A stretch of DNA of 64,000 bases from Longicatena caecimuris (GTDB lineage Bacteria; Bacillota_I; Bacilli_A; Erysipelotrichales; Erysipelotrichaceae): assembly GCF_004341945.1 (NCBI RefSeq), contig NZ_SMBP01000006.1, positions 62,001-126,000 of the forward strand, given 5' to 3'. Numbering within the stretch: position 1 is the stretch's first letter; each line of letters begins with the position of its first letter. The notes beneath the pieces were generated by a model. That model was given only the letters and a program-made list of their open reading frames with translations, was not told where the DNA came from and ran no database searches. Below, piece by piece: positions 2,740 to 51,988 of this stretch. The position numbers were made by a program, and so were the translations under genes.

Positions 2740-5700
2740 CTATTCACTGCGCAAAGCTTCCACCGGATCTTTACGAGCTGCTGCTGATGCCGGGAACAAG
2801 CCTGCAATATAAGTCAATACCATACTGATAATGACTAAAATGATAGCACCAGAAATCGGCAATTGGGCAATATTTTCAATTGCAAATTCCTTTTCTACAA
2901 TGATATTCGCCGGAATACATAATAAGGCTGTTACGAAAACGCCCAACATTCCTGCGGCAAAACCGACAATCAAAGTTTCCGCATTAAAGACACTGCGGAT
3001 ATTGTGCTTGCTGGCACCAAGTGCACGCAAAATACCAATTTCTTTCTTACGTTCAATAACCGAAATGTACGTAATGACTCCAATCATAATACTTGATACA
3101 ATTAAAGAAATAGCTACAAAGGCAATTAATGCTGCACTAATCGTATTCACGATATCAGTCACGGAAGTCATCATCGTCCCTACCAGATCCGTATAATGAA
3201 TCGGATCTTTTCCTTGTTTCTTTAAATCGGCATTATAACGATCAAGAAAATTCAGAATATTTTGTTTGGATTGAAAGTTCAAAGGATAAATATTTACCTG
3301 CTGTGGTGTATTCACATCCGCATAACCTAATGCCGTCATATTACGTTCATATGTCGTTACCACCGGATTCATCAGCGTATTTAAGAAATTCATCAATTCC
3401 TCTTCACTCATATTCATCTGGAAAGCATCTTGAAACGCTGTTGTATCTATCTGAATGCTGTTTTTCAGCTGTGCCGGCAACTGTGCCATAAGCTGTTGCA
3501 TAACTTGCTGCGATTGTCGCTGTATTTGTTTTTCAACGAGTGTGCTCATTTGTTTGACATACGTCTGCATAACACCTTCCATCTCTGTCTGCAAAGCTTT
3601 ACTTAGCTGTTTCGATAATTTCGTCGTATCAATGGCACTTCCCAATTGCTGCCCAATCTGTGCCTGCACCTCTGGTTTTGCCAGATACGTGTTGAGATCT
3701 TGTGACATCTGGGTAGGATCACTTACACCATTTTTTAATTCTTCCGAAATGAAATTCATCATAAGGGAAGAAAAGATTGTCGAGAGCTGATCGGTTGGTA
3801 TCTGGACCTGACTGGCAACAGAAGCAAACACCTCTTCCATATTGGCGTTCACTTTAGGAAGCTCATCGTTCGGTATTTCAAATTTATCGACCTTAACTCT
3901 TATTTTACTCATATCAAAGGCAGAAGTATCCATTTTGAAAGCATTCTGAATCTTTTGTTCATCAATGGAAACAACATCCGCAAATTCCAACTTCGGCTGC
4001 TGATCATTGTTTTCTTGTTGAAAAGATTTCCCTGTAAACACATTAATCGTCGGATTTTTTAATTGTTCCTGGACAATTTTTTGCTTTTCGGCTTCCTTCA
4101 TTAAATAGCTTGTCAGCTTTGGTGAATAATTAATGCCTGAGGATAAAGAGGAGATAGCCGCATCTGATTCAGGTTTGACAATGCCGACAATTTTCAATTC
4201 CACGCCATTCGCTATGATTTTTTTCATATACTTCTTATTTTTTGATTCATCATTCCATATCTTATGTTTTTCATCATAACGATATTTATCCGCAGGCAGA
4301 ATGACCTTGAATTTAGGAGACAATAACGTCTCATAAGAATGTTTCGTTACTGTCTTTTCCTTTTCCACTTTTACTTTCTTACCATTTTGTGAATCTTCCA
4401 ATAAATTGCGTAATTCTTCACGGTCGTTGATTCCCATGGAATATAAAACAAAATCCGATACTTTGCCACTGGAGGACAAGACTAGCACCATTTCATCATA
4501 TTCCTTCGCCCAACGCCCTGCTACTACCTCATATTGATTTTCATACATCTTGGTTTCTTGTGGTAATTCATGAAAGGCATTCATGCTGGTGAAATTTCCC
4601 ATCCCCATCATGGCACTCATATTTTGTGCCGGATCATTTGCGGTGTTAAATAACAAATCCGGATTCACTTGTTCAATCGTTTTATCCGTATCCTTTAAAT
4701 AAATCTGTGGTGTGATATTGTAGGTATATTGTATCGTATTAACATAAGGTGAGATTGCTGTTTCATGTGTTTCCAGATATGTTTTTAATGCTGTCATATC
4801 GTTTTGTTTTTGATAAGAAAACATATCTTTGATCATGCTGATTTCACTAACGCCTTGCTCATCCTTCTTATCTTTTACTTGCGTACTCTGTCCATGTTCA
4901 CTCATCATACTGGTAAGATCAATACCACTTTGCTGAATCGTCAATGGATACAGGCTTAACGTTTCCCGCTCTACATCTTCGATATACAAATTGATACCAT
5001 TCGCTAACGATAAGATTGCCGCGATACCGATGATACCGATGGAACCGGCCAAAGCGGTAATAAACGTACGTGCTTTCTTGGTCATCAGATTACTGAAAGA
5101 CAACGATATGGCGGTACGTAAAGACATCTTAGCTTTTCTTATCGTGCGTTGCACTACCCCTTCTTGCTCATCCAACGCAAATGGATGACTGTCCGCGGTA
5201 ATTTTCCCATCCTGCAGCTGTACGATACGGTTTGCATACTGATGTGCAAGTTCTGGATTATGTGTTACCATAATGACCAATCGATCTTTGGCAATATTCG
5301 TCAATAGATCCATGACCTGAATACTTGTTTTGGTATCCAGTGCCCCGGTTGGTTCATCCGCTAACAAGATTTCCGGATTATTGATCAAAGCTCTGGCAAT
5401 CGCAACACGCTGCATCTGACCGCCGCTTAATTGATTTGGCTTTTTGTGTATATGCTCTTTTAATCCAACTTCTGTTAAAGCCGCAATTGCTCTTTCTTTG
5501 CGCTGAGCCGCCGGTATACCACTTAATGTCAAGGCTAGCTCTACATTGGAGAGAATCGTTTGATGAGGTATTAAATTATAACTTTGAAAAACAAAACCGA
5601 TACGATTATTACGATACGTATCCCAATCTCGTGAGGTATATTTTTTGGTGGAAATCCCTTCAATGACAAGATCACCACTGTCATAATGATCTAAACCACC

Positions 5701-5853
5701 GATAATATTCAGCATTGTTGTCTTACCTGAGCCCGATGGTCCAAGAATTGCCGCAAACTCATTGCTGCGGAAATTAATGGATACCCCATCCAATGCTTTT
5801 TGTTCAAAGTTACCAGTCTTATAAGTTTTACGTATTGTATCCAGTCTTAACAC
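2740..5853 (-). CDS. ABC transporter, fused ATPase and FtsX/MacB-type permease
   Basis: A single 1,037-residue polypeptide. The ATPase occupies about residues 1-225 with Walker A GPSGSGKT (38-45), signature LSGGQMQRVAIARAL and Walker B ILLADEPTGAL. It is followed by one membrane segment (ITALAGSIGIIGIAAIL), a roughly 550-residue external region rich in Gln and Lys with coiled segments, then three membrane segments typical of FtsX C-termini ending in ARKDPVEALRSE. Fused MacB/LolCDE-like exporters usually act as mechanotransmission machines or export peptides or lipids rather than importing solutes. The GTG at 5853 is preferred: AAGGAGG at 5861-5867 leaves 7 bases, whereas the ATG at 5859 leaves one. 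No two-component system is adjacent, so the substrate is unknown. Confidence 0.85.
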   Translation of the reverse strand: MLRLDTIRKTYKTGNFEQKALDGVSINFRSNEFAAILGPSGSGKTTMLNIIGGLDHYDSGDLVIEGISTKKYTSRDWDTYRNNRIGFVFQSYNLIPHQTILSNVELALTLSGIPAAQRKERAIAALTEVGLKEHIHKKPNQLSGGQMQRVAIARALINNPEILLADEPTGALDTKTSIQVMDLLTNIAKDRLVIMVTHNPELAHQYANRIVQLQDGKITADSHPFALDEQEGVVQRTIRKAKMSLRTAISLSFSNLMTKKARTFITALAGSIGIIGIAAILSLANGINLYIEDVERETLSLYPLTIQQSGIDLTSMMSEHGQSTQVKDKKDEQGVSEISMIKDMFSYQKQNDMTALKTYLETHETAISPYVNTIQYTYNITPQIYLKDTDKTIEQVNPDLLFNTANDPAQNMSAMMGMGNFTSMNAFHELPQETKMYENQYEVVAGRWAKEYDEMVLVLSSSGKVSDFVLYSMGINDREELRNLLEDSQNGKKVKVEKEKTVTKHSYETLLSPKFKVILPADKYRYDEKHKIWNDESKNKKYMKKIIANGVELKIVGIVKPESDAAISSLSSGINYSPKLTSYLMKEAEKQKIVQEQLKNPTINVFTGKSFQQENNDQQPKLEFADVVSIDEQKIQNAFKMDTSAFDMSKIRVKVDKFEIPNDELPKVNANMEEVFASVASQVQIPTDQLSTIFSSLMMNFISEELKNGVSDPTQMSQDLNTYLAKPEVQAQIGQQLGSAIDTTKLSKQLSKALQTEMEGVMQTYVKQMSTLVEKQIQRQSQQVMQQLMAQLPAQLKNSIQIDTTAFQDAFQMNMSEEELMNFLNTLMNPVVTTYERNMTALGYADVNTPQQVNIYPLNFQSKQNILNFLDRYNADLKKQGKDPIHYTDLVGTMMTSVTDIVNTISAALIAFVAISLIVSSIMIGVITYISVIERKKEIGILRALGASKHNIRSVFNAETLIVGFAAGMLGVFVTALLCIPANIIVEKEFAIENIAQLPISGAIILVIISMVLTYIAGLFPASAAARKDPVEALRSE

Positions 5854-5892
5854 TTGCATACCTCCTTGTCTTATTGTAAGCATGGTTTTCAT

Positions 5893-6255
5893 GCCTTATG
5901 CATCTATTCTTAAGATAATCATAAAAGATGCTGTTATCAAATGGAGAAGATTATTTGAAAAACAGATAATAATTGATATGCTGTATACAAGAATACAGAG
6001 GAATCCTTTTTTATGAGCAACCATTTCTTATATCATTTCATGATGCATAGGTTACAAGATAGATTATACCATATTTTATAATCTAACAAAAAGTAATTCC
6101 CCTCAAGATATGTAGTCGGCAACAAGCGAAACCGATATGGAACAAACTGCATCAATACTTTACAGAAATAAAGAACTGCGTGTTTCATTAAGCTTTGGAT
6201 ATAAGAAATGGTAATATCCAAAGTGCTTTTTAATAAAAAGAAGCGGAAATAACTT
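5893..6255. other. Intergenic region with a 15-bp inverted repeat
   Basis: No convincing gene. ACCATTTCTTATATC (6020-6034) and its exact complement GATATAAGAAATGGT (6198-6212) enclose about 160 bases. The right arm also forms part of a local hairpin, CTTTGGATAT (6193-6202) with ATATCCAAAG (6214-6223), followed by T residues on the + strand. It may be a degenerate miniature element or a switching RNA structure. Confidence 0.4.
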
Positions 6256-6288
6256 AAAAAGCATCTTATAATGGATATTACAAGATGC
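6256..6288 (-). terminator. Terminator of the PTS-SIS operon
   Basis: A 28-base hairpin (6261-6288; GCATCTT pairing with AAGATGC, plus an inner TAAT/ATTA stem with one mismatch), followed on the minus strand by five T residues. It lies 55 bases beyond the stop of the last operon gene. Confidence 0.7.
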
Positions 6289-6342
6289 CAGTGCGAATCT
6301 TACTATCGTCAGGGTTTCATAAATTCTTATGTTATGCTATGA

Positions 6343-7083
6343 CTACATATAAAAAATCTGATCCTTATATTTTTCGATGAGCGCTTTATTGAACGCATCT
6401 CCGCCATCAACATTCGCCGAATGAAAAATCGGCGGCTCTATCTGTTGCTTTAATAACTTTTCTACAACTTGAATGACCAAACTGTTAATGATGGCAGCTC
6501 CCGTTATTGTAGAAGTAGGCGCTACTTTCTGCTTCATACCATCCATCAACATGCAGGAATCTTCAAAATCCCCGCAATTATCAATTACGATATCGGCGAT
6601 TTGATATAAGTTTTTTCCACATGCATGACGACTTTTGACCTGTTTGGAATATGTGACATTGGTGATGGCGATTACCGCAATTCCTTTTTTCTTCGCTTCC
6701 AATGCCATATCAATGGCGATTGTATTTCTACCTGAGACAGAATGAATGATCAAGACATCATGCGCTTTCATCTTACTATTATCTGCTAAGATCTTACCAT
6801 ATCCAGCCAAGCGTTCCATTTGCGATGTCTGAATGATCGGCCGTACATCTAGCATGACTTCTCTTGGTAAAATAGGATTTACCACTACCAGACCGCCTGT
6901 ACGATAAAACATTTCCTGTGCCAAAATACCGGCATGAGATGCCCCAAAAATAAAAATGCTATGTTGTTGTTTTATCGTTTCCACAAGCAAATCACTTGCC
7001 TGCTGTACATAAACATCTTGCTCATTGGCAATTGCATGCAAAAGTTCTATCACATGCTCAATATACAATTTGCTATTTTCCAT
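6343..7083 (-). CDS. SIS-domain phosphosugar-binding protein (COG4821/UPF0309 type)
   Basis: A 246-residue single-domain SIS_2 protein. The phosphosugar loop reads FIFGASHAGILAQEMFYRTGGL (split here as GASHAG and FYRTGG) and the second loop reads SVSGRN; a conserved NCGDFEDSCM segment and a C-terminal IFHSANVDGGD tail complete the family pattern. Members are cytosolic and are thought to bind or isomerise phosphorylated sugars or cleave sugar-phosphate conjugates; no reaction is established to my knowledge. It is the last gene of the PTS operon, 9 bases after its paralogue, with AGGAGC upstream. A sugar-phosphate lyase, isomerase or sensor are all possible. Confidence 0.8.
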   Translation of the reverse strand: MENSKLYIEHVIELLHAIANEQDVYVQQASDLLVETIKQQHSIFIFGASHAGILAQEMFYRTGGLVVVNPILPREVMLDVRPIIQTSQMERLAGYGKILADNSKMKAHDVLIIHSVSGRNTIAIDMALEAKKKGIAVIAITNVTYSKQVKSRHACGKNLYQIADIVIDNCGDFEDSCMLMDGMKQKVAPTSTITGAAIINSLVIQVVEKLLKQQIEPPIFHSANVDGGDAFNKALIEKYKDQIFYM

Positions 7084-7092
7084 AAACAGCTC

Positions 7093-7842
7093 CTATAAAT
7101 TACGAATGCGATAAAAATACTTATCGACTAACTGATCATTATGATCTGCACATTCCGGTTTCATAAATGCCATATGCCCATTGTAATACACATCCGGTTC
7201 CATGCCTTCTTCAACCAATAATTCAACCATCTGCACCAAAACAGCATTTTGCAAATATACTGAAGGTATCGTACTGGTAGCGCCAACCTTCATATCAAAG
7301 CCTTCAATCGCAACTGCGGCATCCCCAATCAAAGAGCAATTATCCAATACAACATCGGCAATGTCCTTTAATTTTACCCCGTCTTTATGCTTCGTTTTTA
7401 AATAATCACTATATGCACATGCCGTAATGCCAATCACCGGTATTCCCTTTTCCTTTGCTCGCAGTGCCGCATCTACCGGCGCAATATTGTTTCCGGAATT
7501 AGAAATGATGATCATACAGTCTTTAGGGGTAATACGATGGTAATCTACCATTAACTTCCCGATACCATATGTATTTTCAATGTGATAACTTTTGGTTATT
7601 TCGAAGCTGCCGGTTGCACTTTGTTCTAATAAAGCACAATAATTAGCCGGTGTAGCTGCTCTCCAAAACGCATCATCCGTAACTAAATGTGAATGACCTG
7701 TACCAAAACCATAAATAATACCGCCGTTCTTTGTTGTATTGGCAAGTATTTTCGCCGCCTGCATAATATTTTCTTCCTGTGTATCCAATACCTTTTGTAC
7801 TACATCTTGCATTGTCAAAAAATAATTTTTCCAAGCCTTCAT
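7093..7842 (-). CDS. Divergent SIS-domain protein (COG4821 type)
   Basis: A 249-residue paralogue of the neighbouring SIS protein. It keeps the first loop (GFGTGHSHLV) but has RAAT where paralogues have RAGG or RTGG, and SNSGNN where they have SNSGRN, so one ligand-contacting arginine is replaced. The C-terminus (YYNGHMAFMKPECADHND) also differs. It is preceded by AAAGGAGG and lies between the PRD regulator and the last SIS gene. Possible explanations are a different phosphosugar or glycoconjugate substrate, or pairing with the downstream paralogue as a heteromer. Family membership is secure; the role is inferred only from PTS context. Confidence 0.8.
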   Translation of the reverse strand: MKAWKNYFLTMQDVVQKVLDTQEENIMQAAKILANTTKNGGIIYGFGTGHSHLVTDDAFWRAATPANYCALLEQSATGSFEITKSYHIENTYGIGKLMVDYHRITPKDCMIIISNSGNNIAPVDAALRAKEKGIPVIGITACAYSDYLKTKHKDGVKLKDIADVVLDNCSLIGDAAVAIEGFDMKVGATSTIPSVYLQNAVLVQMVELLVEEGMEPDVYYNGHMAFMKPECADHNDQLVDKYFYRIRNL

Positions 7843-7872
7843 GATATCCTCCTTTTGTTCTCATGTTTTTCT

Positions 7873-7897
7873 CTGCATGGTTTTATGCTGCATGCAG
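7873..7897 (-). other. Intercistronic hairpin
   Basis: CTGCATG (7873-7879) pairs with CATGCAG (7891-7897) between the regulator and the SIS pair. It lacks a T run, so mRNA processing or stability is more likely than termination. Confidence 0.35.
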
Positions 7898-7905
7898 TAA
7901 GTAAC

Positions 7906-9831
7906 TTATAGACGACTGTTATCTAAACTTTCGATTAATTCTTGATAATCCTGATTTTTCGCATAATATGTAATGCGCGTCTTTACATCGGCCCAGTTTG
8001 ATATTAAATGATACATATGATGTACCATTTCTTTATCACTTTCTGCATTCATATTCATAAAAAAGATATAACGCACATGCTGCTTTTCCCATAACATATG
8101 ATTTTTAAGACTTAAAAACGCAATAAATGGCGTATGGTAATCATAGCGGGAATGCAAACAGATGATGTCATTTCCAACTTCATTTCCTAAATGATAAATA
8201 CCGTTTACCAATTTCGTAGCTTCCGCTTCCCCCCACATAGCTGCCAAGAGCTTTTCTAGCTCCTTGTACACATCTTGTTTATTTTTACACAACAACCCTT
8301 CTTGATATAAAGAAGGCAGCAAATATTTGCGGATAGAACAATTGATATCATATTCACTCTTTAATAACGATAAAATCTCATGGTAATAAAATTCTACCTT
8401 TCCCTGTATATATACAACCGGTACTTTACTGCTTGGCATAATAGGGATAGTCGTTATTACGATATCATTGTGTTGAAAAGAGAAATTTTCCAATTCTATG
8501 ACATCACAAGTAACAATATCATCAATAAAACCTTTAAAATTTTCATTCAGCGTATTCAGCGTCATGATCATTTCCGGTCTGCCATAACCACTTACTAATA
8601 TTAAACGTTTCTTGATTCGGCTCTGATAACGATTTAAAGCTAGATTGAAATATAGTACCAGATACCCAAATTCATTATGGTCTATTTCAATCTGTAATTC
8701 CTCTTCAATCACATCAACAGCTTCCAACGTTAGCTCCACTGCAAATTGATAACGCCGATTATTTTCCAATAATAATGGATTCCGTAAAGTCAATTGCAGG
8801 CGAATACGCTCTGCCATGGATGGAATATGCAGCTTTAAGAATTCATATATCTCCGTATCCTTTTTGAAAGATATGGCGAAGCGCTGCTCAATACGTTTGA
8901 ATACCTTTTGTAATAAAGCATCCATATAGGATAAATCAAATTTGCGGATATCTTCATTTCCCATCACTGTCTTAGATAAGATATGCATCGTTAGATAAAT
9001 CGTTTCATGTTCAGGCAAAATGATATTCATCTGCTCTTCCAACATTTGCTTCAATTCTATGGCAGCTTTGTACGCTTTATGTTCTTTCATCTGCTGCATT
9101 ACAGCGTCATCAAAACGAACATATTGATAAAATTTACAACGACGAAGCTCTATAACGATATGTATGACCATATTTTGAATAGAAGCATCTGAGAAATGAA
9201 TGTTATGTTTATTTAAAACATGCAATAGTGCCTCTCGTATATAACGTATCTCATTTTGATTATATTCACTGGAAAACATCACATTGTTTTGAACAAAGAA
9301 ATCTTGCATCTTATCTTGAAAGAAAAAATCATTGATACAAATACGTTTCTGAATTTCACTTCCTTCTACGATGATTCCATTGTTGTTTGATTGAACGATG
9401 ATAAGGTGATAATTATGTAATAAACGTTTCACTTCTTTAATATCCAAAGAAATCGTATTGCGGCTTACGTATAGTTCATCCGCTAGATCATCTAATTTTA
9501 TCGGATAATCTAAAGATAAAAGCTTTCGGATGATATATATGGAACGTTCTTTTTGCGTATGCGGAAACTGCCGAGGCGATTCACTCTGGATACGATTCTT
9601 GATAGGTAAAAAAGCTTCTTCATTCAAGATATGCAACCGATAGCCTACACCACGTTTAATTTCTAATTCAGCACCATAGGCTGTTAATTCCATCTTTAAA
9701 CCTTTTAATGTACTCTTAATGGTTCGTACACTGATATCCATCTGATCCGCCAGTTGTTTACTGGTGATATAATCTTGGGTATCCTTGAGAATACGGATGA
9801 TACCTTTTAATCGCTCATTTAACAATATCAT
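7906..9831 (-). CDS. PRD-containing transcriptional regulator (MtlR/LicR/BglG class)
   Basis: A 641-residue regulator with two N-terminal helix-turn-helix domains (TSKQLADQMDISVRTIKS near residue 25; DDLADELYVSRNTISLDIK near 115), two PTS regulation domains (about 185-290 and 300-400, with histidines in LPEHETIYLTMH, LKLHIPSM and DHNEFGYL), a IIB-like domain and a C-terminal IIA-like domain (LHSRYDYHTPFIAF). Such proteins activate PTS operons when phosphorylated on selected histidines and dephosphorylated at the IIB cysteine or IIA histidine. Here the IIB loop reads LVSGYGRPEM without the usual cysteine, so that input seems lost. It sits inside the PTS-SIS operon and most likely controls it. 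GGAGGAG precedes the ATG. Confidence 0.85.
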   Translation of the reverse strand: MILLNERLKGIIRILKDTQDYITSKQLADQMDISVRTIKSTLKGLKMELTAYGAELEIKRGVGYRLHILNEEAFLPIKNRIQSESPRQFPHTQKERSIYIIRKLLSLDYPIKLDDLADELYVSRNTISLDIKEVKRLLHNYHLIIVQSNNNGIIVEGSEIQKRICINDFFFQDKMQDFFVQNNVMFSSEYNQNEIRYIREALLHVLNKHNIHFSDASIQNMVIHIVIELRRCKFYQYVRFDDAVMQQMKEHKAYKAAIELKQMLEEQMNIILPEHETIYLTMHILSKTVMGNEDIRKFDLSYMDALLQKVFKRIEQRFAISFKKDTEIYEFLKLHIPSMAERIRLQLTLRNPLLLENNRRYQFAVELTLEAVDVIEEELQIEIDHNEFGYLVLYFNLALNRYQSRIKKRLILVSGYGRPEMIMTLNTLNENFKGFIDDIVTCDVIELENFSFQHNDIVITTIPIMPSSKVPVVYIQGKVEFYYHEILSLLKSEYDINCSIRKYLLPSLYQEGLLCKNKQDVYKELEKLLAAMWGEAEATKLVNGIYHLGNEVGNDIICLHSRYDYHTPFIAFLSLKNHMLWEKQHVRYIFFMNMNAESDKEMVHHMYHLISNWADVKTRITYYAKNQDYQELIESLDNSRL

Positions 9832-9893
9832 ATTTCTCCTCCTGCTTTTTCCATAAATATCCTGCTGTTTGGATATTCAAAATTAAGAGTACA

Positions 9894-11078
9894 TTATAGA
9901 TACCTGTTCTTTTTCAACCATGCATAAATGCGCAACATACCCTCTTTTAGCGTTTCTCTTGGGCAGGCAACATTCACACGCTGATATGCTCCATATGCTT
10001 TTCCAAAACCAATTCCCGGCTGTAATTCTACATGCGCTTCAAATTTCAGGCGTTCAGCAAAGTCTGCCGGTACCTGCAATGCAGAAAAATCAAGCCAAGC
10101 TAAATAGGTAGCCTGAGGAATTTCATATCTTACCAATGGCATAGTATTGGCAAGAAATTCCTTTAAGAACAGAAAGTTATCATAAATGTATGCACAGCAC
10201 TCCTCCCTCCATTGATCCCCCTTTGTATATGCTGCAATCAAAGCCTCAATACCAAAAATATTGATGCTAGATAAACCGCTTGCTTTCGCTACGGATGCAA
10301 ATGTTTCTTGTAACACCGCATTTTTAACAATTGCATACGATATTTTTAATCCGGCTAAATTAAACGTTTTGGTTGGTGCACCTAACAGAATCAAATTGTC
10401 ATGATATGCACATCGGCATTTTAACGCACTCACATGATGTTGATTCGGCATGATGATATCCGCATGAATTTCGTCAGATACTACCCATACATTATAGCGC
10501 TTACACAGTTCCATTACATTGTTAATTTCTTCCAATGTATAACACTGCCCCGTTGGATTGTGTGGGTTGCATAAAATAAACATACGAATGGATGCATCTT
10601 TTTTCAAACATTCTTCAAAATGCTGCAAATCCATGTGCCATCCGCCTTGTCCATGTTGTAAAGGATTATAAACGACTTCTCGTTGTAAACTTTTTGGTAT
10701 ATTAAAGAAAGGCGGATATACCGGAGGTTGTACGATTACCTTTTCATCATGTTTTACCAACATATCGATCAACGTATAAAAACCATATACAACGCCTGTA
10801 TTGAAGATGATTTCTTCTTTTCTCACCTCCACATCATGCTGTCGTTTTTCCCATTGTATGATAGCGTCATACAATTCCTTTGGAGGATCTGTATAACCAT
10901 ATATCGGATGCGCTGCCCGTTTTCTTATTGCTTCACTCACTTCAGGCAGACATTCAAAATCCATATCCGCAACCCATAAAGGAATCACATCTTCTTCTAT
11001 TTGATAACGGCTCTTATAACGATCCCACTTGGTACAACTGCTGTTCAAACGTGATTGGGCTTTATCGAATTGATACAT
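9894..11078 (-). CDS. MalY/PatB-type PLP aminotransferase (C-S or C-N lyase)
   Basis: A 394-residue fold-type I PLP enzyme of the MalY/PatB group. Recognisable segments are VIPLWVADMDF near residue 33, YGYTDPPKELYDAI, CNPHNPTGQCYT, VVSDEIHADI and the PLP-lysine motif APTKTFNLAGLKISYA. Family members cleave cystathionine or S-conjugated cysteines by beta-elimination or transaminate, in the cytosol. Its place between IIB and the PRD regulator of a PTS operon suggests it handles the amino-acid part of an imported amino-sugar or thioglycoside conjugate, which is inference. A perfect hairpin separates it from the PTS genes upstream, so its expression could be lower. Confidence 0.85.
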   Translation of the reverse strand: MYQFDKAQSRLNSSCTKWDRYKSRYQIEEDVIPLWVADMDFECLPEVSEAIRKRAAHPIYGYTDPPKELYDAIIQWEKRQHDVEVRKEEIIFNTGVVYGFYTLIDMLVKHDEKVIVQPPVYPPFFNIPKSLQREVVYNPLQHGQGGWHMDLQHFEECLKKDASIRMFILCNPHNPTGQCYTLEEINNVMELCKRYNVWVVSDEIHADIIMPNQHHVSALKCRCAYHDNLILLGAPTKTFNLAGLKISYAIVKNAVLQETFASVAKASGLSSINIFGIEALIAAYTKGDQWREECCAYIYDNFLFLKEFLANTMPLVRYEIPQATYLAWLDFSALQVPADFAERLKFEAHVELQPGIGFGKAYGAYQRVNVACPRETLKEGMLRIYAWLKKNRYL

Positions 11079-11144
11079 TTCATCACTCTCCTTTTCTTAC
11101 ATCCGGTTTACGATGCTTTATTTGGTATTATGCAGAATAGGACA

Positions 11145-11173
11145 GAAAACATCACAGAAGCCGTGATGTTTTC
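11145..11173 (-). terminator. Attenuating hairpin inside the operon
   Basis: GAAAACATCAC (11145-11155) pairs perfectly with GTGATGTTTTC (11163-11173). On the minus strand it ends in TTTTC, a modest tail, so partial termination between the PTS genes and malY-like gene is likely. Confidence 0.55.
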
Positions 11174-11177
11174 ATTC

Positions 11178-11666
11178 TCATAATTTATTAATCAGCTCCA
11201 TTAGATCATCATCTGCATTATCTGGTACCTGTTTGCCGGTAAGTTTTACACCACGTCGTGACAATTCTTGAAAATCTTTAATTTCTTCATCTGTTACATT
11301 GATACTTTTTTTCACATTTCGCGTTCCATCACGCGCTGGAAGATTTCCAACATTGATTTCTTGAACCTCTACACCATGATCCATCATACGCAAGATATCT
11401 TTAGGTCTGCGTACGACCAAAATGACACGCTGACCTTCATATTTACCACTTACTAAATTTTTTGTAGCTTTTTCGATATTCAATAACGATGATTTTAAAC
11501 CTGCCGGAACAACTAAACGTAACGCTGCTTTTTGAACATCATTTTCATACATGGCATCATTCGCCACCATGATTCTTGTCGCGTTTACAGCATTACACCA
11601 ATATACCGCTACCTGACCGTGAATCAAACGATCATCAATACGAACATGTACCAAACCTTTTGTCAT
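11178..11666 (-). CDS. PTS mannose/fructose/sorbose-family EIIB (second copy)
   Basis: A 162-residue cytosolic IIB of the mannose superfamily that carries the phosphoryl group from IIA to the incoming sugar. The phosphorylated histidine is His16 in VRIDDRLIHGQVAVYW; NVGNLPARDGTRNVKKS and KGVKLTGKQVP-like elements are typical. It follows the IID gene by 13 bases with GGAGGTAG upstream. A second, clearly different IIB lies at 14088-14582, so one copy may serve transport and the other signalling to the PRD regulator, or the two may handle different substrates. Confidence 0.9.
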   Translation of the reverse strand: MTKGLVHVRIDDRLIHGQVAVYWCNAVNATRIMVANDAMYENDVQKAALRLVVPAGLKSSLLNIEKATKNLVSGKYEGQRVILVVRRPKDILRMMDHGVEVQEINVGNLPARDGTRNVKKSINVTDEEIKDFQELSRRGVKLTGKQVPDNADDDLMELINKL

Positions 11667-11679
11667 AACACTACCTCCA

Positions 11680-12474
11680 TCAGCCTAAAATGCCGGCTAC
11701 ACTACAGACAATTCCCAAAATCATCACAAAGATAATAGCTTTAAAAGATGTCATTCCCTTTCTATTTAATAATGTATACACCAATGCTACTAATAAAACC
11801 GGAATCAATGAAGGCATAATTTGATTTAAGATGTTTTGTAGTTCCATTTTAACTTCGCCGCTTTTAAAGACAAATGGTACATTGGCATTTACAACACTAG
11901 GTATCAAAGCTCCTACGACCGTAAGTCCTAAGATACTTGCAGCTTCTGTTACTCGATTCATCTTATCCCCAAGATTTTGAATTAGTTTTGTCCCTTCACG
12001 ATAACCGATACGAATAAATTGACCTCGCAAAGCAACACGGATACAACCCCAAATCAAATACATGATAATCCCGATAGGATTTCCTTCTAATGCCATATAA
12101 GAACCAATAGAGAAGAAGATCGTATTGGCAATCACACCGAATAAAGTATCCCCGATACCGGCAAGTGGTCCCATCAAACCAGTTTTGATGGCGGATACAG
12201 CTTCTAAAGCTTCAATTCCTTCTTTTTCTTCCATTGCGATATCTATACCGAGTATGATTTCCGCAAATTCCTGATGAGTATTAAAGAATTGTAAATGTGT
12301 ATTCAGTGCTTTTTTCATATCCTCCTGCTCAGGATACAATTTTTTTAATACAGGTATCATAGAGAAACAATATCCCAAACCTTGCATCTTTTCATAATTC
12401 CATGCTGCCTCACCTAATAACAACCAGCGATATCTAACTTTTTTAATGTCTTGTTTTGTAATTGGCTCATTCAT
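11680..12474 (-). CDS. PTS mannose-family EIID membrane component
   Basis: A 264-residue IID protein. It has the family's N-terminal pattern (LLGEAAWNYEKMQGLGYCFSM), the central GLMGPLAGIGDTLFGVIANTIF motif (quoted here as GPLAGIGDTLFG) and C-terminal membrane segments. With IIC it forms the sugar channel in the cytoplasmic membrane. The start at 12474 (MNEPITK) leaves 9 bases after AAGGAG; the ATG at 12480 leaves 3. It overlaps the end of the IIC gene by 8 bases, indicating translational coupling. Confidence 0.9.
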   Translation of the reverse strand: MNEPITKQDIKKVRYRWLLLGEAAWNYEKMQGLGYCFSMIPVLKKLYPEQEDMKKALNTHLQFFNTHQEFAEIILGIDIAMEEKEGIEALEAVSAIKTGLMGPLAGIGDTLFGVIANTIFFSIGSYMALEGNPIGIIMYLIWGCIRVALRGQFIRIGYREGTKLIQNLGDKMNRVTEAASILGLTVVGALIPSVVNANVPFVFKSGEVKMELQNILNQIMPSLIPVLLVALVYTLLNRKGMTSFKAIIFVMILGIVCSVAGILG

Positions 12475-13240
12475 CTTCATCAGCTCCTTCCATAACGGAT
12501 GTTAATTCTTTTTCGCCACTTCTGCGATATGCCAATAATGCCAGAGCAGCACCGACTAAAGCAACTCCCAACATAGGAATACTCATGTATGCAGATAGAA
12601 CAAAACCGATTATCAAATATGCTGTATATTTTTTGGTAGGAAGATATTTCAACAAGATAGCAATACCAACAACTGGTAATAATCCTCCGGCAACTTTTAA
12701 GCCATCACCTAACCAATCCGGGAAGTAAGCAACAAAATTTTGTACTAATTCACTGCCTAGCAGTAAACATAAGAATACTGGTATTGCTCTTGAGAATCCC
12801 CAACAGAAGATACCAAGGACATTCATCCGTTCAATGCCTTTTATATTACCGCTTTCCATATAACGATCCGCACGGTGTTGAAAGAACGTATTCGCAAAAC
12901 GAGCAAATACATCAAGCTGAACCAATAACATTCCAACCGGTACAGCCAAACCGATACCGAACTCCACACCTTTGCCACTGATCGTACCCAATGCCGTACC
13001 AATTAAAGCAGCAGACATGAAGTCCGGAAGTGATGATCCCCCAAAATTAGAAACACCTAAAACCATCAATTGTAAGGTTGCCCCTACAGTGAGTCCAAAG
13101 CTCAGATTCCCCATGACCACACCGGCAAAACAGCCGGCAATTAAAGGTCTGTTTAAACCAAAATCCATATGAATCGCATCGTTTATAGCAATAAATGCAT
13201 AAAGCGATAACAATATAATTTGTAGAAAATTAATTTCCAT
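12467..13240 (-). CDS. PTS mannose/sorbose-family EIIC permease
   Basis: A 257-residue polytopic membrane protein of the mannose-type IIC family with about seven hydrophobic segments. Characteristic stretches are DFGLNRPLIAG, GNLSFGLTVGATLQLMVLG, SLPDFMSAALIGTALGT and the Arg/Asp loop HRADRYMESGNIKGIERMN. It moves the sugar across the membrane during phosphorylation by IIB. AAAGGAG precedes the ATG and the gene follows the second IIA by 14 bases. The substrate cannot be read from sequence alone. Confidence 0.9.
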   Translation of the reverse strand: MEINFLQIILLSLYAFIAINDAIHMDFGLNRPLIAGCFAGVVMGNLSFGLTVGATLQLMVLGVSNFGGSSLPDFMSAALIGTALGTISGKGVEFGIGLAVPVGMLLVQLDVFARFANTFFQHRADRYMESGNIKGIERMNVLGIFCWGFSRAIPVFLCLLLGSELVQNFVAYFPDWLGDGLKVAGGLLPVVGIAILLKYLPTKKYTAYLIIGFVLSAYMSIPMLGVALVGAALALLAYRRSGEKELTSVMEGADEDE

Positions 13241-13254
13241 TTCCTTTTTCTCCT

Positions 13255-13677
13255 TTACTCATCTTCCATATTTTGTTTTGTTTTCAGTAATAACTCATTC
13301 ACATTAATCACATTTTCTTTTGCAACGGAAATGAGATTGTCCACAATTTGTGATAATTCCCCATTTCTTTGTAAATACGCTTCCATAACAAGAGGCAGGC
13401 TGATGCCGGCTATTAAATAACTCTTTTTTGAACTGGAAAATAACTGCGTAATAGCACTGCGGCAAGGTGAACCGCTGTAGATATCTGCTAATACGAGCAA
13501 TGGCATAGAATTTTGCCAATGGATACAGGTGTGAATTTTCTTTTCCAAATCTTCACTTGAATCATCCTCTTCAAGTGCGCAGTATGTTATATCTGGTTCC
13601 TCACCTAAAATCATTTTCATCGTCTGATGATACCCCTCTGCTAAAGCACCATGCGATAGTATCAGCATCTCGTACAA
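13255..13677 (-). CDS. PTS mannose-family EIIA (second copy)
   Basis: A IIA domain protein of about 140 residues. The phospho-accepting histidine is His9 in MLILSHGALAEG; LVLADIYSGSPCRSA is the second conserved loop. I place the start at the TTG at 13677, 8 bases after AAGGAG; the ATG at 13668 (MLILSHG) is an alternative. A start further upstream would add a tail overlapping the previous gene. The family normally has one IIA per system, but here two stand-alone IIA genes are adjacent and only moderately similar. Confidence 0.85.
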   Translation of the reverse strand: MYEMLILSHGALAEGYHQTMKMILGEEPDITYCALEEDDSSEDLEKKIHTCIHWQNSMPLLVLADIYSGSPCRSAITQLFSSSKKSYLIAGISLPLVMEAYLQRNGELSQIVDNLISVAKENVINVNELLLKTKQNMEDE

Positions 13678-13696
13678 GTGCCTCTCTCCTTCCTGT

Positions 13697-14101
13697 TTAT
13701 TCTTCATCATCTATTCGTTTGCGAACATTTACGATATCTTCTACAGCTGTTTTTTTCACGACAGCAGCCAATGTCTTTACATCATAATTTAAGCTTTCAC
13801 GAATGGCACTAATCAACATTACCAGATTCATACCCGTAATAACCTCTACCTGTGGATATTGCAAGGATAATGCAGCTATGCGTGTTGTCGCCCCGGACAG
13901 CAAATCGGTTAAAATTAAGACAGCGGCGTGATGCGATATAAAGTTTTTTACTTTTTTGTGAACATCGTTTATATCATCATCCGCATAAAGTCCGATAACA
14001 TGGACTTGCTGCTCAATTTTTATAAACATGGAGGCACTATCCAATAACTCTTTGCCGATGTTTCCATGTGTTACGATCAAGATCGTATTATCCTGTTCCA
14101 T
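13697..14101 (-). CDS. PTS mannose-family EIIA (first copy)
   Basis: A 134-residue cytosolic IIA that takes the phosphoryl group from HPr on His12 (ILIVTHGNIG). Conserved elements ILTDLLSGATTRIAAL and EVITGMNLVMLISA match the mannose IIA fold. The start at 14101 follows GAGGT by 5 bases and overlaps the IIB gene by 14 bases. It stands second in the operon. Confidence 0.9.
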   Translation of the reverse strand: MEQDNTILIVTHGNIGKELLDSASMFIKIEQQVHVIGLYADDDINDVHKKVKNFISHHAAVLILTDLLSGATTRIAALSLQYPQVEVITGMNLVMLISAIRESLNYDVKTLAAVVKKTAVEDIVNVRKRIDDEE

Positions 14102-14582
14102 GTCTGACCTCACTTAGATCTATCAATTGTTCCTTTTCTGCAGGTATTTGACGAATTTCCAACTTAACACCTTTGTTCATGAGCCGCTGACAAATTTCAA
14201 TATCTTCCTTGCGCAAAATCACAAAACGATTCAATACTATGGCTTCTTTATCTGATTTATTACGGTAACCGCCCACATTAATAGAGTGAATCGTAGGTAA
14301 TATCTCATGAAGCTGCCAAGCATCACTGAAATTTTCAACGATGACCATCACGCGATCATCATTTTCTAAGGCATCTAATAAAGCATCTCGGCATGCAGCA
14401 AGTTCATAAAACAGCAGTTCAACATTTTTAGGCTTCGCTAAATTCAATGTGACTTTAGAAAATTCATCATTCTCCACTTCATCATTGATGATAAAAATTT
14501 TGTCAATATGATAAAAGGATGTCCAGCTTTGTGCAACCTGTCCATGCAACAGGCGATCATCTACACGCAATACTTTGATCAT
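14088..14582 (-). CDS. PTS mannose-family EIIB (first copy)
   Basis: A 164-residue IIB with phospho-histidine His13 in LRVDDRLLHGQVAQSW. Compared with the IIB at 11178 it diverges in the middle (INVGGYRNKSDKEAI in place of NVGNLPARDG). It is the first gene of the PTS block, preceded by AAGGAGG at a good distance. The 160-base gap upstream carries a TGCAC-N8-GTGCA repeat at 14701-14718, which may be an operator or a terminator. Confidence 0.9.
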   Translation of the reverse strand: MIKVLRVDDRLLHGQVAQSWTSFYHIDKIFIINDEVENDEFSKVTLNLAKPKNVELLFYELAACRDALLDALENDDRVMVIVENFSDAWQLHEILPTIHSINVGGYRNKSDKEAIVLNRFVILRKEDIEICQRLMNKGVKLEIRQIPAEKEQLIDLSEVRHGTG

Positions 14583-14699
14583 GTGCTACCTCCTTCGCTT
14601 TTCATATCACTACTTCGGAAAAGATCGTTTTCTCCATTTAAAATATAACGTTTCCACTATTATTTTAAGATAGATTAGGTTACAGCGATATGTAAATCG

Positions 14700-14724
14700 T
14701 TGCACCTATATTCGTGCAATTTTT
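14700..14724 (+). repeat. TGCAC-N8-GTGCA inverted repeat, site A
   Basis: TGCAC (14701-14705), 8 bases, GTGCA (14714-14718), then AATTTTT on the + strand. It resembles the two sites upstream of the SIS gene at 15465. It could be a regulator-binding site in the PTS promoter region or a short terminator-like hairpin. Confidence 0.5.
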
Positions 14725-14742
14725 ATTATGACGCATGCTAAG

Positions 14743-15465
14743 TTAGTAAAGACGTGTATACTTTTGATAAAGGTCATCGTTAATGTTTTGCTTTGCTAAT
14801 CCGTTTAGACTGACAAAGACAGGTGGAGTTCCTCCTTTTTCAGCAATATATTGTGCTGTTAACACACTGATTGCCTGAACGATGAACGTATTCGCAATCG
14901 AGGAGGTTGGCATCATAGCAACATTACATCCTTCTACCGCTAAACAGGCATCACCTAATTCTCCGCAGTTATCAATCACAATATCCGCGATATCCATCAG
15001 CTTCTTACCGCTTTTTGCTCGTGATGTCGTTGCCGAAGAATGCTTGATGCTAGTAATCGCAATGACACGAGCACCTTTTTCTTTTGCACATTGTGCCAAT
15101 TCAACCGGATATGCATTACGCCCCGAATTTGAAGCAATGACAAGAACATCATCTTTTGTAATATGGTAAAGTTCACAAAGAATCGCTGCATAGCCGGATA
15201 ATTTTTCGATATAAGAACTTTTGGTAGGATGTTCCGTCATGGTCAATTCATTGGTAAGGATGGGTACCGTAAACGCTAACCCTCCGGCACGGCCATAAAA
15301 TTCTTCACAAACCGTATGAGAATGCCCACTACCACTGACAAAAAAGGTATGTCCATTTAGGAAGGCTTCTGCAATCCATTGCGCGCTTTGCTCAATGGCA
15401 GTTTGCTGCGTGGATTGAATTTTTTTGACGACCTGTATACCGGTTTCAAAAATTTTCTGATACAT
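14743..15465 (-). CDS. SIS-domain phosphosugar-binding protein (COG4821/UPF0309 type)
   Basis: A 240-residue SIS_2 protein with both canonical loops: GSGHSHTVCEEFYGRAGGL near residue 40 and ASNSGRN near residue 105, plus IDNCGELGDACL and the tail PVFVSLNGLAKQNIND. It is expected to be cytosolic and to act on, or sense, a phosphorylated sugar. GGAGATGA lies just upstream of the ATG. It precedes the PTS genes by 160 bases and its own leader carries two tandem TGCAC hairpin repeats, so it may be regulated jointly with but separately from the PTS block. It is the closest in motif quality to the fourth paralogue at 47966. Confidence 0.82.
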   Translation of the reverse strand: MYQKIFETGIQVVKKIQSTQQTAIEQSAQWIAEAFLNGHTFFVSGSGHSHTVCEEFYGRAGGLAFTVPILTNELTMTEHPTKSSYIEKLSGYAAILCELYHITKDDVLVIASNSGRNAYPVELAQCAKEKGARVIAITSIKHSSATTSRAKSGKKLMDIADIVIDNCGELGDACLAVEGCNVAMMPTSSIANTFIVQAISVLTAQYIAEKGGTPPVFVSLNGLAKQNINDDLYQKYTRLY

Positions 15466-15520: not shown

Positions 15521-15583
15521 AAAAAAATGCACGTTTTATGGTGCAGGGAAAAATGACAAAAAAATGCACCATGCATAGGTGCA
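15521..15583 (-). repeat. Two tandem TGCAC hairpin repeats followed by T runs (sites B and C)
   Basis: Site B is TGCAC (15528-15532), 8 bases, GTGCA (15541-15545); site C is TGCAC (15565-15569), 9 bases, GTGCA (15579-15583). Read on the minus strand each is followed at once by seven T residues. They lie 63-118 bases upstream of the SIS start at 15465. They may be operators or tandem attenuators. The remainder of 15584-15862 shows no gene. Confidence 0.55.
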
Positions 15584-45777: not shown

Positions 45778-46045
45778 AAAAAAAGCTTTCATCCAAAGGA
45801 CGAAAGTTACCTTACGTGTTTCCACCTTAGTTCATTGATGCCTCACAGCACCAACCTCTTCGAGTACCAACATACTCTAGCACGATAACGGGTGCAGGGT
45901 CATTTCCGATTTCAGCTACTGAAGTTCCCTGAAACTGCTCCAAGATGTGTTCGTGAATAGTTATGCATATCTTTCTTCCACCAATGAAAGACTCTCTGTC
46001 ATGTTCCCTAAACCTACTATTTCTTTTCGACGCATTCATATTCTA
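45778..46045 (-). ncRNA. T-box leader of the histidine operon
   Basis: The 5' leader has the order of a tRNA-sensing T-box: AGAGAG and a GGTGGAAG element in the stem I region, a possible CAC histidine specifier at 45947-45949 (minus strand context GAACACATC), the T-box sequence AGGTGGAAACACG (45815-45828 with its first A), and a terminator with stem CTTTC/GAAAG (45786-45806) and seven T residues. Uncharged tRNA-His would pair with the T-box bulge, stabilise the antiterminator and allow transcription of hisZ onward. The T-box core differs slightly from the usual GGTGGNACCGCG. Confidence 0.82.
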
Positions 46046-47965: not shown

Positions 47966-48691
47966 ATGGAGTTTTTTAAAACCTATCACGAAGTTGTGAT
48001 GAAGGCGATGGAAAATGCCACAAAAACCAATGAAGATGCCATTGAAAAAGGCGCAAAACTGATGGCAGATGCTGTCCAAAATGGTCATACCTTATATACC
48101 TTTGGAACAGGCCATTCCCACATGATCGGTCAGGATGTGTACGCAAGAGCTGGTGGTTATGCAAAAATTTATCCAATCGTTGAGATTGAGATGACTTTGG
48201 CAACCCATCCTACCAAGAGTACCCATGTGGAACGTACGGCAGCTTACGCTGATGTATTGGATGTGTTATATCACATAGAAGATGGCGATGTCATCATCGC
48301 CACAAGCAACTCCGGACGTAATCCTTTGGTGATTGAGTATATGATGCGTGCAAAAGCAAAAGGTGCTAAGATTATTGCGATTACTTCCTTATCTCATTCA
48401 AAGACGATCAAAAGCCGTCATGAGAGTGGCAAGCGTCTGTTTGAGTTAGCTGATGTTGTCTTAGATAATGTCGCTCCTTATGGCGATGCCGGAGTGGATA
48501 TTGATAAGGAAACACGTATGGGGCCAATCAGTACGCTGACCGGATGCTATCTGGCACAATTGCTGATGGGATGCTTTGTGGAAGATTTGAAACAGCGTGG
48601 GGTAGATGCTCCCGTGTTTAAATCCAGTAATATGGATGGAGCAGACGCCTATAACCAAAAGCTGTTTGATGCCTACGTTATTAAAAAGTAG
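47966..48691 (+). CDS. SIS-domain phosphosugar-binding protein (fourth paralogue)
   Basis: A 241-residue COG4821-type SIS protein with intact loops FGTGHSHMIGQDVYARAGG near residue 48 and TSNSGRN near residue 110, DNVAPYGDAGVDI and the tail PVFKSSNMDGADAYNQ. It lies apart from the PTS operon, alone on the + strand, divergent from an XRE regulator and convergent with a ROK kinase. As with its paralogues, the reaction is unknown; the ROK neighbour supports a phosphorylated sugar as ligand. Confidence 0.83.
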   Translation: MEFFKTYHEVVMKAMENATKTNEDAIEKGAKLMADAVQNGHTLYTFGTGHSHMIGQDVYARAGGYAKIYPIVEIEMTLATHPTKSTHVERTAAYADVLDVLYHIEDGDVIIATSNSGRNPLVIEYMMRAKAKGAKIIAITSLSHSKTIKSRHESGKRLFELADVVLDNVAPYGDAGVDIDKETRMGPISTLTGCYLAQLLMGCFVEDLKQRGVDAPVFKSSNMDGADAYNQKLFDAYVIKK

Positions 48692-48887: not shown

Positions 48888-49775
48888 TTAAGCATGAAAG
48901 ACAAGATAGGCAGCCCCAATCAATCCACAATCTTCATCCAATTGTGCTTTTACCACCTTCACATTATCTTTTAAGGCATCATATACTTTTTCTTTCACAC
49001 GTGCTTCCATCTCTTCAATAAAGCCCTCAATCTTTAATGCTACACTACCACTTAAGACAAAGATATCCGGATCTAAAACAGCATAGAAAGTCGCCATTAA
49101 ATTTGCCAAATACTCCTTGGCATCCTCCATGATCTGCATTGCTGCCACATTGCCCTGTTTTGCCAAATCATTGACTTCACCGGCATGCGCAACCGTTAAA
49201 CCGGCTTCTTGTGCACGTTTGGTAATGGCAGTACCACTGGAAATAGATTCAATGCTGCCTTTCTTTAAATCCCCCTGTGAAGGTCCATCTTTCCAAAAGA
49301 TACAATTCGCAATTTCTTGGGCAAAGCCCCGGGAACCATGGAAAAGCTGTTTATCAATAGCTAAACCAGTACCGATACCTGTCGATATCGTTAAAAACTG
49401 TACATGCGAATATCCTTTTCCTGCCCCGATTGCAGCCTCTGCCAAACAAGCCAGATTTGCATCATTTTCTAAAATAACCGGCACTTGACACACTGTGGAT
49501 AACTCCTTGGTAAGAGGAAGATGATGCCAGCCAGGAAGATTGGGCGGAGTTAAGACTACCCCATGTACCAGATCCAAAGGCCCTGGACAAGATACGCCAA
49601 TCCCTTTTACCGTATGTCCAAAAGCGGCAATCGTATCTGCTATTCTTTGAAACGTGATAGCAGGATGAAGGGGATCTGTCGCAAACTGTTCGCGTTGTAA
49701 AACTTCATAAGCTTCATTAATCAGTGCTACTCTGGTATTTGTACCACCGATATCAATACCCACTGCATAATTCAT
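48888..49775 (-). CDS. ROK-family sugar kinase
   Basis: A 295-residue ROK kinase: ATP-binding YAVGIDIGGTNTRVALI, GIGVSCPGPLDL, catalytic Asp in LENDANLACLAEA and TISTGIGTGLAI. The usual zinc-binding H-x9-C-x-C-G-x2-G-C motif is missing: where it should lie the sequence reads GFAQEIANCIFWKDGPS, so it belongs to the zinc-free minority. It could phosphorylate glucose, an N-acetylated amino sugar, or another hexose. No HTH domain, so it is an enzyme rather than a NagC-type repressor. It faces the SIS gene across a terminator. Confidence 0.82.
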   Translation of the reverse strand: MNYAVGIDIGGTNTRVALINEAYEVLQREQFATDPLHPAITFQRIADTIAAFGHTVKGIGVSCPGPLDLVHGVVLTPPNLPGWHHLPLTKELSTVCQVPVILENDANLACLAEAAIGAGKGYSHVQFLTISTGIGTGLAIDKQLFHGSRGFAQEIANCIFWKDGPSQGDLKKGSIESISSGTAITKRAQEAGLTVAHAGEVNDLAKQGNVAAMQIMEDAKEYLANLMATFYAVLDPDIFVLSGSVALKIEGFIEEMEARVKEKVYDALKDNVKVVKAQLDEDCGLIGAAYLVFHA

Positions 49776-49876
49776 AAATTTACCTAGTATAAGAACATCC
49801 TTCCTATACCTATCCTTTCTTTCATATTTTTTAAGTTGTACTGCCTGTTTATAAGGATTCCTTTAAAAGCTGTACT

Positions 49877-49992
49877 AGCAATATCCTTCTTGTGCATGTG
49901 CCACCTGCATCAGCCAAAGTATGCTTTTAGTCATAGCAATTAACATCCAGCTAAGGATCTATCTTCAGCCAAAGTATGCAATATTAGCAATT
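49877..49992. repeat. Degenerate direct repeats in the gap between ROK and aldolase genes
   Basis: TCAGCCAAAGTATGC occurs at 49910-49924 and 49965-49979, each followed by AGCAATT (49935-49941, 49986-49992); AGCAAT also occurs at 49877. The unit is about 55 bases and has diverged between copies. No gene is supported in 49776-50056. Confidence 0.5.
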
Positions 49993-50056
49993 GACAAAAA
50001 CCTCACCAGTAGCGCACAACATCCATCACAGCACTTAAACAGACATCTTTCACTAA

Positions 50057-50080
50057 GAAAAAAAGGGGACTTTCATCCCC
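50057..50080 (-). terminator. Terminator of the PTS-aldolase operon
   Basis: Minus strand GGGGA (50076-50080) pairs with TCCCC (50065-50069) around CTTTCA-like loop bases, followed by eight T-rich bases. It separates the ROK gene from this operon. Confidence 0.75.
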
Positions 50081-50088
50081 AAAGCAGA

Positions 50089-50958: not shown

Positions 50959-50979
50959 AAGTATTTCGCTCCTTTTCCC

Positions 50980-51834: not shown

Positions 51835-51856
51835 AGAACCCCTTTCTGTTGAATGT

Positions 51857-51969
51857 CACGATTGGTACTGGTTAAGCGTAGGTTTGTTTGAGAAGGCAGG
51901 AACAACCCCTTATATCGTCCCTTGCACCTTCAAGGTTTAGCCACCTTTTCTTAGATAGCACCAATCGTG
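51857..51969 (-). other. Intercistronic structured spacer between IIC and aldolase genes
   Basis: CACGATTGGT (51857-51866) and ACCAATCGTG (51960-51969) are perfect complements enclosing about 93 bases, with an inner CCTT/AAGG hairpin. Within an operon this would fold as one long stem on the mRNA, suggesting processing, stability control or an unassigned RNA element. Confidence 0.45.
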
Positions 51970-51988
51970 TTTTTTTCAACATGTTATC

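Follow-up and report, generated by a model that had tools for sequence, protein, structure and literature searches.

We analyzed a 64-kb window of the genome of Longicatena caecimuris (contig NZ_SMBP01000006.1, positions 62,001 to 126,000; coordinates below are those of this 64,000-nucleotide stretch), in which 11 co-directional open reading frames on the minus strand exactly fill positions 6343-15465 (Table 1). In the order of transcription, they encode SIS3, the phosphotransferase system (PTS) subunits IIB1, IIA1, IIA2, IIC, IID, and IIB2, a PatB/MalY-family pyridoxal phosphate (PLP) enzyme, a PRD regulator, SIS2, and SIS1. The first-pass annotation had described this set as one IIC and one IID served by two distinct IIA and two distinct IIB proteins, together with a MalY-type lyase, a PRD regulator, and three COG4821-type SIS proteins, and this content was confirmed by Pfam and NCBIfam. 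Neighboring genes from IIB1 through IIB2 overlap or lie no more than 14 bp apart, the spacing between SIS2 and SIS1 is 9 bp, and the larger gaps measure 160 bp (SIS3-IIB1), 99 bp, 62 bp, and 63 bp. These spacings point to one operon with a possible second start in the 160-bp gap ahead of IIB1, and palindrome 3, situated in this gap, suggests that a second promoter serves the PTS genes. The operon is real and of a recurring type. Its G+C content is 37.5%, versus 39.3% for the window; a plasmid search gave no match, and matches to TAL effectors were dismissed as repeat artifacts.

Table 1 Genes and sequence features of the PTS-SIS operon
Feature	Coordinates	Strand	Description
Operator-like palindrome 1	15565..15583		TGCACC-N7-GGTGCA, upstream of SIS3
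Operator-like palindrome 2	15528..15545		TGCAC-N8-GTGCA, upstream of SIS3
SIS3	14743..15465	-	COG4821/PRK02947 enzyme, first gene; nine NagS active-site residues H,S,R,S,E,S,S,D,N
Operator-like palindrome 3	14701..14718		Between SIS3 and IIB1
PTS IIB1	14088..14582	-	Mannose/sorbose family; phospho-His retained
PTS IIA1	13697..14113	-	Mannose family; GTG start; phospho-His retained
PTS IIA2	13255..13710	-	Mannose family; phospho-His retained
PTS IIC	12467..13240	-	Nearest relatives 41-52% identity, many in NagA/NagB/MurQ/PBP4B-like/SIS operons
PTS IID	11680..12480	-	EIID-AGA
PTS IIB2	11178..11666	-	Phospho-His retained
PatB/MalY-family PLP enzyme (C-S lyase family)	9894..11078	-	TIGR04350; PDB relatives PatB, MalY, cystalysin
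MtlR-like transcription regulator	7906..9831	-	HTH_11, Mga HTH, and PRD domains
SIS2	7093..7842	-	COG4821 enzyme; variant pocket S91 to Y, N228 to H (NagS numbering)
SIS1	6343..7083	-	COG4821 enzyme; S54 to A
Terminator-like hairpin	6260..6289	-	Directly after SIS1; probable operon end

PTS subunits and SIS proteins

The PTS proteins comprise two PTSIIB_sorb, two EIIA-man, one EII-Sor (IIC), and one EIID-AGA (IID) protein, a complete mannose-family set. The two IIB proteins share 27% identity and the two IIA proteins 26%, and the phospho-histidine motifs (RxDDRLxHGQV in IIB and HG in IIA) are intact in all four. The doubled subunits are thus, as had been proposed, distinct proteins, and reflect neither a recent duplication nor decay.

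All three SIS proteins match SIS_2 and PRK02947 above the cut-off of 135 bits (curated NF002805), with 286.9 bits for SIS1, 237.4 for SIS2, and 260.9 for SIS3. The designation of this family as uncharacterized in the first-pass annotation is outdated, as NagS from Streptomyces coelicolor (SCO4393; PDB 9EOL), the only characterized member, is an N-acetylglucosamine 6-phosphate (GlcNAc-6P) dehydratase that acts on both GlcNAc-6P and N-acetylmannosamine 6-phosphate (PMC12680351). Residues H53, R64, E94, and D179 of NagS are essential, S91 and N228 are important, and the active site is formed jointly by two subunits (PMC12680351). The NagS reaction is an elimination at C3, and the enzyme is related to MurQ.

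In an alignment of 140 sequences, equivalents of H53, R64, E94, and D179 were found in SIS1, SIS2, and SIS3. All nine of the probed NagS residues are identical in SIS3, whereas the pocket of SIS2 carries two replacements also found in 18 other sequences, and that of SIS1 a single replacement shared with 20 others (Table 1). These patterns indicate that the three enzymes are intact yet belong to three classes, and a decay of the SIS proteins was rejected on the same grounds. SIS3 is 33% identical to NagS over the aligned part of the latter and falls short of the level reported for NagS orthologs (at least 58.7% identity in the Streptomycetaceae). An AlphaFold2 model of SIS2 (pLDDT, 91.7) superimposed on BH3325 (3CVJ) and NagS (9EOL) with a TM score of 0.92, and its match to heptose isomerases and MurQ was far below this.

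Strict complementation of half-sites between SIS1 and SIS2 was considered for the window and is unsupported, as both proteins keep the four essential residues; it is further disfavored by the occurrence of SIS2 orthologs on their own, and only the relatives with three copies display such a pattern clearly. In four of the surveyed loci (L124, L125, L126, and L127), three tandem COG4821 genes display complementary half-site losses: one copy is complete, one is devoid of N228, and one lacks H53, S54, E94, or S119 and retains R64 and N228. Since the NagS site is built from both subunits, this pattern has the appearance of mixed dimers with divided labor, and these sequences suggest that the COG4821 proteins of the three-copy relatives may be obligate mixed dimers.

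COG4821 proteins scored above the cut-off in 101 of the 146 genomes sampled from the bacterial family. The window itself harbors a fourth member, SIS4 (47966-48691, plus strand), which lies outside the operon and had been missed in the first pass. It adjoins genes for a ROK kinase, two class II aldolases, and a fructose-type IIC (48888-53077), and a similar operon with its own SIS gene is present at L210. A scan of the window with Rfam gave a single match, a T-box leader (RF00230; 106 bits) at 45793-46039 on the minus strand, outside the operon and upstream of genes resembling a histidine biosynthesis operon.

Gene neighborhoods and shared palindromes

We consider the permease a better test of the substrate than the neighborhood of the SIS genes. 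IIC was searched for in the 146 genomes, and 20 loci were chosen from among the best matches without regard to SIS genes. Genes for NagA, NagB, MurQ, a PBP4B-like PF00144 protein, or a ceramidase-family protein were found near the IIC relative at 12 of these loci and COG4821 genes at 10, with at least one of the two kinds at 14. Among eight control mannose-PTS operons (L150 and L152-L156 from the same genome, L158, and L168), none had a COG4821 gene or such an amino-sugar gene within seven genes of IIC; control L158 has NagA about 8 kb from its PTS genes. One-sided Fisher tests, uncorrected for relatedness, gave P values of 0.004 for the amino-sugar genes and 0.014 for COG4821. The names NagA, NagB, MurQ, and MurR/RpiR were confirmed by NCBIfam for representatives, and in L240 and L242, NagA was matched only weakly or at a gene truncated by the end of the contig.

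Individual loci illustrate the association. In L224 and L229, whose IIC proteins are 49-52% identical to that of the window, the gene order is IIA, PBP4B-like, MurQ, MurR/RpiR, IIB, IID, and IIC. L225 and L226 harbor three or four COG4821 genes along with NagA and NagB, and L234 contains SIS, NagA, MurR/RpiR, IIC, IID, SIS, IIA, PBP4B-like, LarA lactate racemase, and aminotransferase genes. The LarA-type racemase of L234 (13581-14873) would fit the release of D-lactate from N-acetylmuramic acid (MurNAc). In a tree of IIC sequences, the window protein was placed at the base of a group associated with SIS and NagA (16 members; support, 0.97), which the MurQ group joins next (support, 0.93). MurQ was present in all 19 of the sampled genomes that contain this IIC clade and in 55 of the 126 others (Fisher P = 1e-6, uncorrected for relatedness and genome size).

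The SIS genes themselves present a more varied picture. SIS2-class genes adjoin NagA in L134, L136, and L137 and NanE in L131, more distant SIS2-like genes adjoin NanE-type genes in L112, L113, L114, and L119, and L132 pairs a SIS2-class gene with a SIS1-class gene, as in the window. Mannose-PTS clusters with COG4821 genes often include NagA or a ceramidase-family protein. The ceramidase-family (PF04734) proteins adjoin a mannose-type PTS in L174, L181, L182, L196, and L243, most of which also contain COG4821 genes and two of which contain NanE; perhaps these proteins act there as amidases for N-acyl amino sugars. Overall, the neighborhoods point to amino sugars, partly of the cell wall, in the case of the permease, and to an ascorbate-type PTS in the case of SIS1.

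The TGCAC-N8/9-GTGCA palindrome, which had escaped notice in the first pass, occurs three times in the window, in all cases at the operon, with two copies ahead of SIS3 and one ahead of IIB1; 0.14 copies were expected, and none of 100 shuffled sequences reached three. Across the 2.95-Mb genome, a stricter form matched the three operon sites and one site on contig 22, where a looser form detects a pair of sites (6144-6161 and 6223-6240 of L218). This pair separates a divergently transcribed PRD regulator gene from an operon that encodes a fructose-type PTS and a class II aldolase, and in which genes apparently for an epimerase, RpiB, dihydroxyacetone kinase, and transketolase were also named by eye. 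The N-terminal DNA-binding parts of the two regulators share 28% identity. We regard the palindrome as the putative operator of these MtlR-like PRD regulators. As a mark of one shared substrate it is weak, since the second pair of sites adjoins another PRD regulator, and its distribution is better explained as common to two paralogous regulators.

Substrate and pathway

The prediction that the SIS enzymes of this PTS operon use a 6-phosphosugar as their substrate is supported. The frequent location of permease relatives beside genes for cell-wall amino sugars makes a sugar of this kind, and not a glycated amino acid, the probable substrate. We therefore favor, tentatively, the view that the operon is controlled by its PRD regulator and serves to break down an N-acetylated amino sugar, or a substituted derivative of such a sugar, with the SIS enzymes responsible for ring-opening and C2-C3 chemistry. 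In the proposed pathway, the mannose-family PTS would import the sugar and add a phosphate at C6, and a single IIC/IID channel would be supplied by either of two IIA/IIB pairs. The COG4821 enzymes would then open the ring of the 6-phosphosugar, take the C2 proton, and either eliminate the group at C3 or isomerize the sugar; since the pocket is different in each of the three, they probably differ in substrate or step as well. The product would enter a NagA/NanE route encoded elsewhere in the genome, in which two NagA proteins over the cut-off and two NanE proteins are present. PatB/MalY would treat an amino acid part of the substrate by beta-elimination or racemization.

Several results weigh against the amino-sugar assignment. 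None of the PTS subunits passed a substrate-specific equivalog cut-off, the Aga models included (AgaW, 174 versus 300; AgaF, 69.7 versus 130). The operon itself has no NagA, NagB, or NanE gene. In contrast to its relatives, the genome, at 99.96% completeness, lacks both a MurQ above the cut-off (best match, E = 5.1e-6) and any PF00144 protein, the hydrolases of the PBP4B or AmiE type. Distant NagS homologs from Clostridium, Paenibacillus, and Acidothermus displayed negligible or no activity on GlcNAc-6P (PMC12680351). SIS1-class genes mostly occur with an EIIC-GAT ascorbate-type PTS, often with a PRD regulator and usually without an amino-sugar gene, and the SIS protein most like SIS3, in L210, is encoded with a fructose-type PTS and class II aldolases. 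A core amino-sugar gene was present within four genes at 2 of 40 sampled COG4821 loci; the count rises to 14 of 41 clusters once ceramidase-family proteins and a wider span are included. The rarity in the 40-locus sample indicates that there is no tie to amino sugars across the entire COG4821 family, and a general link of this kind was not borne out; it is stronger in the mannose-PTS subset.

These observations raise the possibility that the substrate is a non-amino sugar or a sugar acid and that the SIS proteins are aldose-ketose isomerases or epimerases that prepare a rare hexose phosphate for a kinase and an aldolase. The ascorbate-type PTS at most SIS1-ortholog loci, the fructose-type PTS, ROK kinase, and class II aldolases that accompany SIS4 and the SIS of L210, and the occurrence of the same palindrome at the contig 22 operon are all consistent with this alternative. 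However, the operon is devoid of kinase, aldolase, and epimerase genes, its IIC clade is linked to NagA, NagB, MurQ, and PBP4B-like genes, and the shared palindrome is accounted for by the paralogous regulators. We consider this explanation unlikely, although it deserves attention.

The absence of MurQ and PF00144 proteins makes the host an exception within the IIC clade. It may use a plainer amino sugar or another enzyme for the MurQ step, or the specificity of its permease may have changed. In a special case of the amino-sugar reading, MurNAc or a MurNAc-peptide would be the substrate, the COG4821 proteins would replace MurQ and split the lactyl ether of MurNAc 6-phosphate (MurNAc-6P) by C2-C3 elimination, and amino acids of the stem peptide would be racemized or degraded by MalY. 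L224 and L229 connect close relatives of the permease with MurQ, MurR/RpiR, and PBP4B-like proteins, the counterparts of the Escherichia coli murQP-yfeW set, and L226 and L234 combine COG4821 genes with a similar permease, a PBP4B-like protein, and NagA, with LarA in addition in L234. The C3 elimination performed by NagS, the relationship of NagS to MurQ, the absence of MurQ from this genome, and the racemization of many amino acids by a Lactobacillus sakei MalY are in agreement with the proposal. On the other hand, SIS-bearing relatives keep MurQ elsewhere in their genomes and so do not exemplify a replacement, the host has no PF00144 protein, and no test of a COG4821 enzyme on MurNAc-6P was found in the literature searched. 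We therefore regard the MurNAc proposal as doubtful. Equally doubtful is a related reading, in which the permease-linked COG4821 proteins would cleave 3-O-substituted amino-sugar phosphates, for example MurNAc-6P, as a second, unrecognized kind of etherase or lyase, taking the place of MurQ here and, in the three-copy relatives, acting as mixed dimers with one half-site per copy.

The first-pass annotation had envisaged a pathway for an amino-sugar or glycosyl-amino-acid phosphate, by analogy with operons for glycated amino acids. The neighborhoods of the IIC relatives favor the former part. The latter, in which glycated or glycosyl-amino acids are taken up and the SIS proteins act as deglycases, seems to us very unlikely. 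A mannose-type PTS with several SIS proteins does recall Gfr, and the amino acid set free could serve a PLP enzyme as substrate. However, SIS1, SIS2, and SIS3 have no match to PRK11382, the model used here for Amadori-type deglycases (FrlB, FraB, GfrE, and GfrF), in line with the earlier remark that they belong to another SIS family, and no Amadori-type deglycase was found near the permease at any locus of the IIC clade. The same genome contains separate mannose-PTS operons with FrlB-like or GlmS-type SIS proteins (L154, L155, and L156), which are candidates for the real glycated-amino-acid operons; PRK11382 was matched, below the cut-off, by proteins of L154 and L155.

The PatB/MalY enzyme belongs to the PatB-family C-S lyases (407 bits versus a cut-off of 340), and close orthologs (54-61% identity) were found in eight other sampled genomes. 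PTS genes adjoin the ortholog in three of them (L134, L136, and L163), all from one genus, and L134 and L136 also include the three-copy SIS set; in the other five (L158-L162), SIS genes are absent from the vicinity. The idea that MalY is a universal partner was rejected, since only the window and one other genus among the nine close orthologs display the arrangement. At L134, a HAD phosphatase and MalY read as a single protein of 662 amino acids (5109-7097) adjoining IIA; at L136 and L163 they are separate neighboring genes. The MalY protein of Lactobacillus sakei is both a beta-lyase and a broad amino acid racemase (PMC5845896), and this breadth makes it possible that the window enzyme acts on an amino acid part of the substrate. 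The C-S lyase assignment, along with the proximity of close MalY genes to mannose-PTS or SIS genes in a second genus, could alternatively indicate a thio-sugar or a cysteine S-glycoside, with SIS cleaving the phosphosugar part and PatB/MalY the C-S bond of cysteine. This is highly improbable in our view, as most of the orthologs are encoded away from SIS genes and PatB/MalY enzymes are catalytically broad. No paper on a PTS, a C-S lyase, and MurQ together was found in the literature.

Although COG4821 (UPF0309) proteins are widespread in this bacterial family, the reaction of only one member is known, and the locus offers a concrete and testable set of substrates. Our results show that COG4821 proteins fall into classes that differ in signature and in the transport systems with which they are associated. 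They also point to a pathway for amino sugars, from the cell wall or elsewhere, that would escape annotation with MurQ or deglycase models.

Comparison with known systems

The SIS proteins share with NagS the COG4821/UPF0309 family, the fold (as modeled for SIS2), and the essential H, R, E, and D residues. They differ in that nagS lies beside dmdR1, outside any PTS operon, and in the altered pockets of SIS1 and SIS2 and the identity of about 33% for SIS3. Among MurNAc systems, E. coli has murQ-murP-yfeW and Bacillus subtilis murQRP-amiE-nagZ (PMC5061867). Relatives of the window permease are found with the corresponding MurQ, MurR/RpiR, and PBP4B-like PF00144 proteins, whereas the operon and genome described here have neither MurQ nor PF00144, and the permease is of the mannose family and not of the MurP type, accompanied by COG4821 proteins and a PRD regulator. 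Operons for glycated amino acids of the Gfr/Fra type also combine a PTS with several SIS-fold enzymes, but theirs are of the FrlB/GlmS type and those of the window match PF13580 and PRK02947. The aga operon for N-acetylgalactosamine and galactosamine likewise employs a mannose-family PTS, and Aga models are among the best equivalog matches of IIA2 and IIC; the window operon, however, scores below the Aga cut-offs and harbors no AgaS, kinase, or aldolase, with AgaS encoded elsewhere in the genome (L151). In malX-malY of E. coli, a PTS gene is paired with a MalY enzyme, and the PTS is of the glucose type with no SIS enzymes. The operon of L. caecimuris has the same pairing of a PTS with MalY, but in combination with a mannose-family PTS and SIS enzymes.

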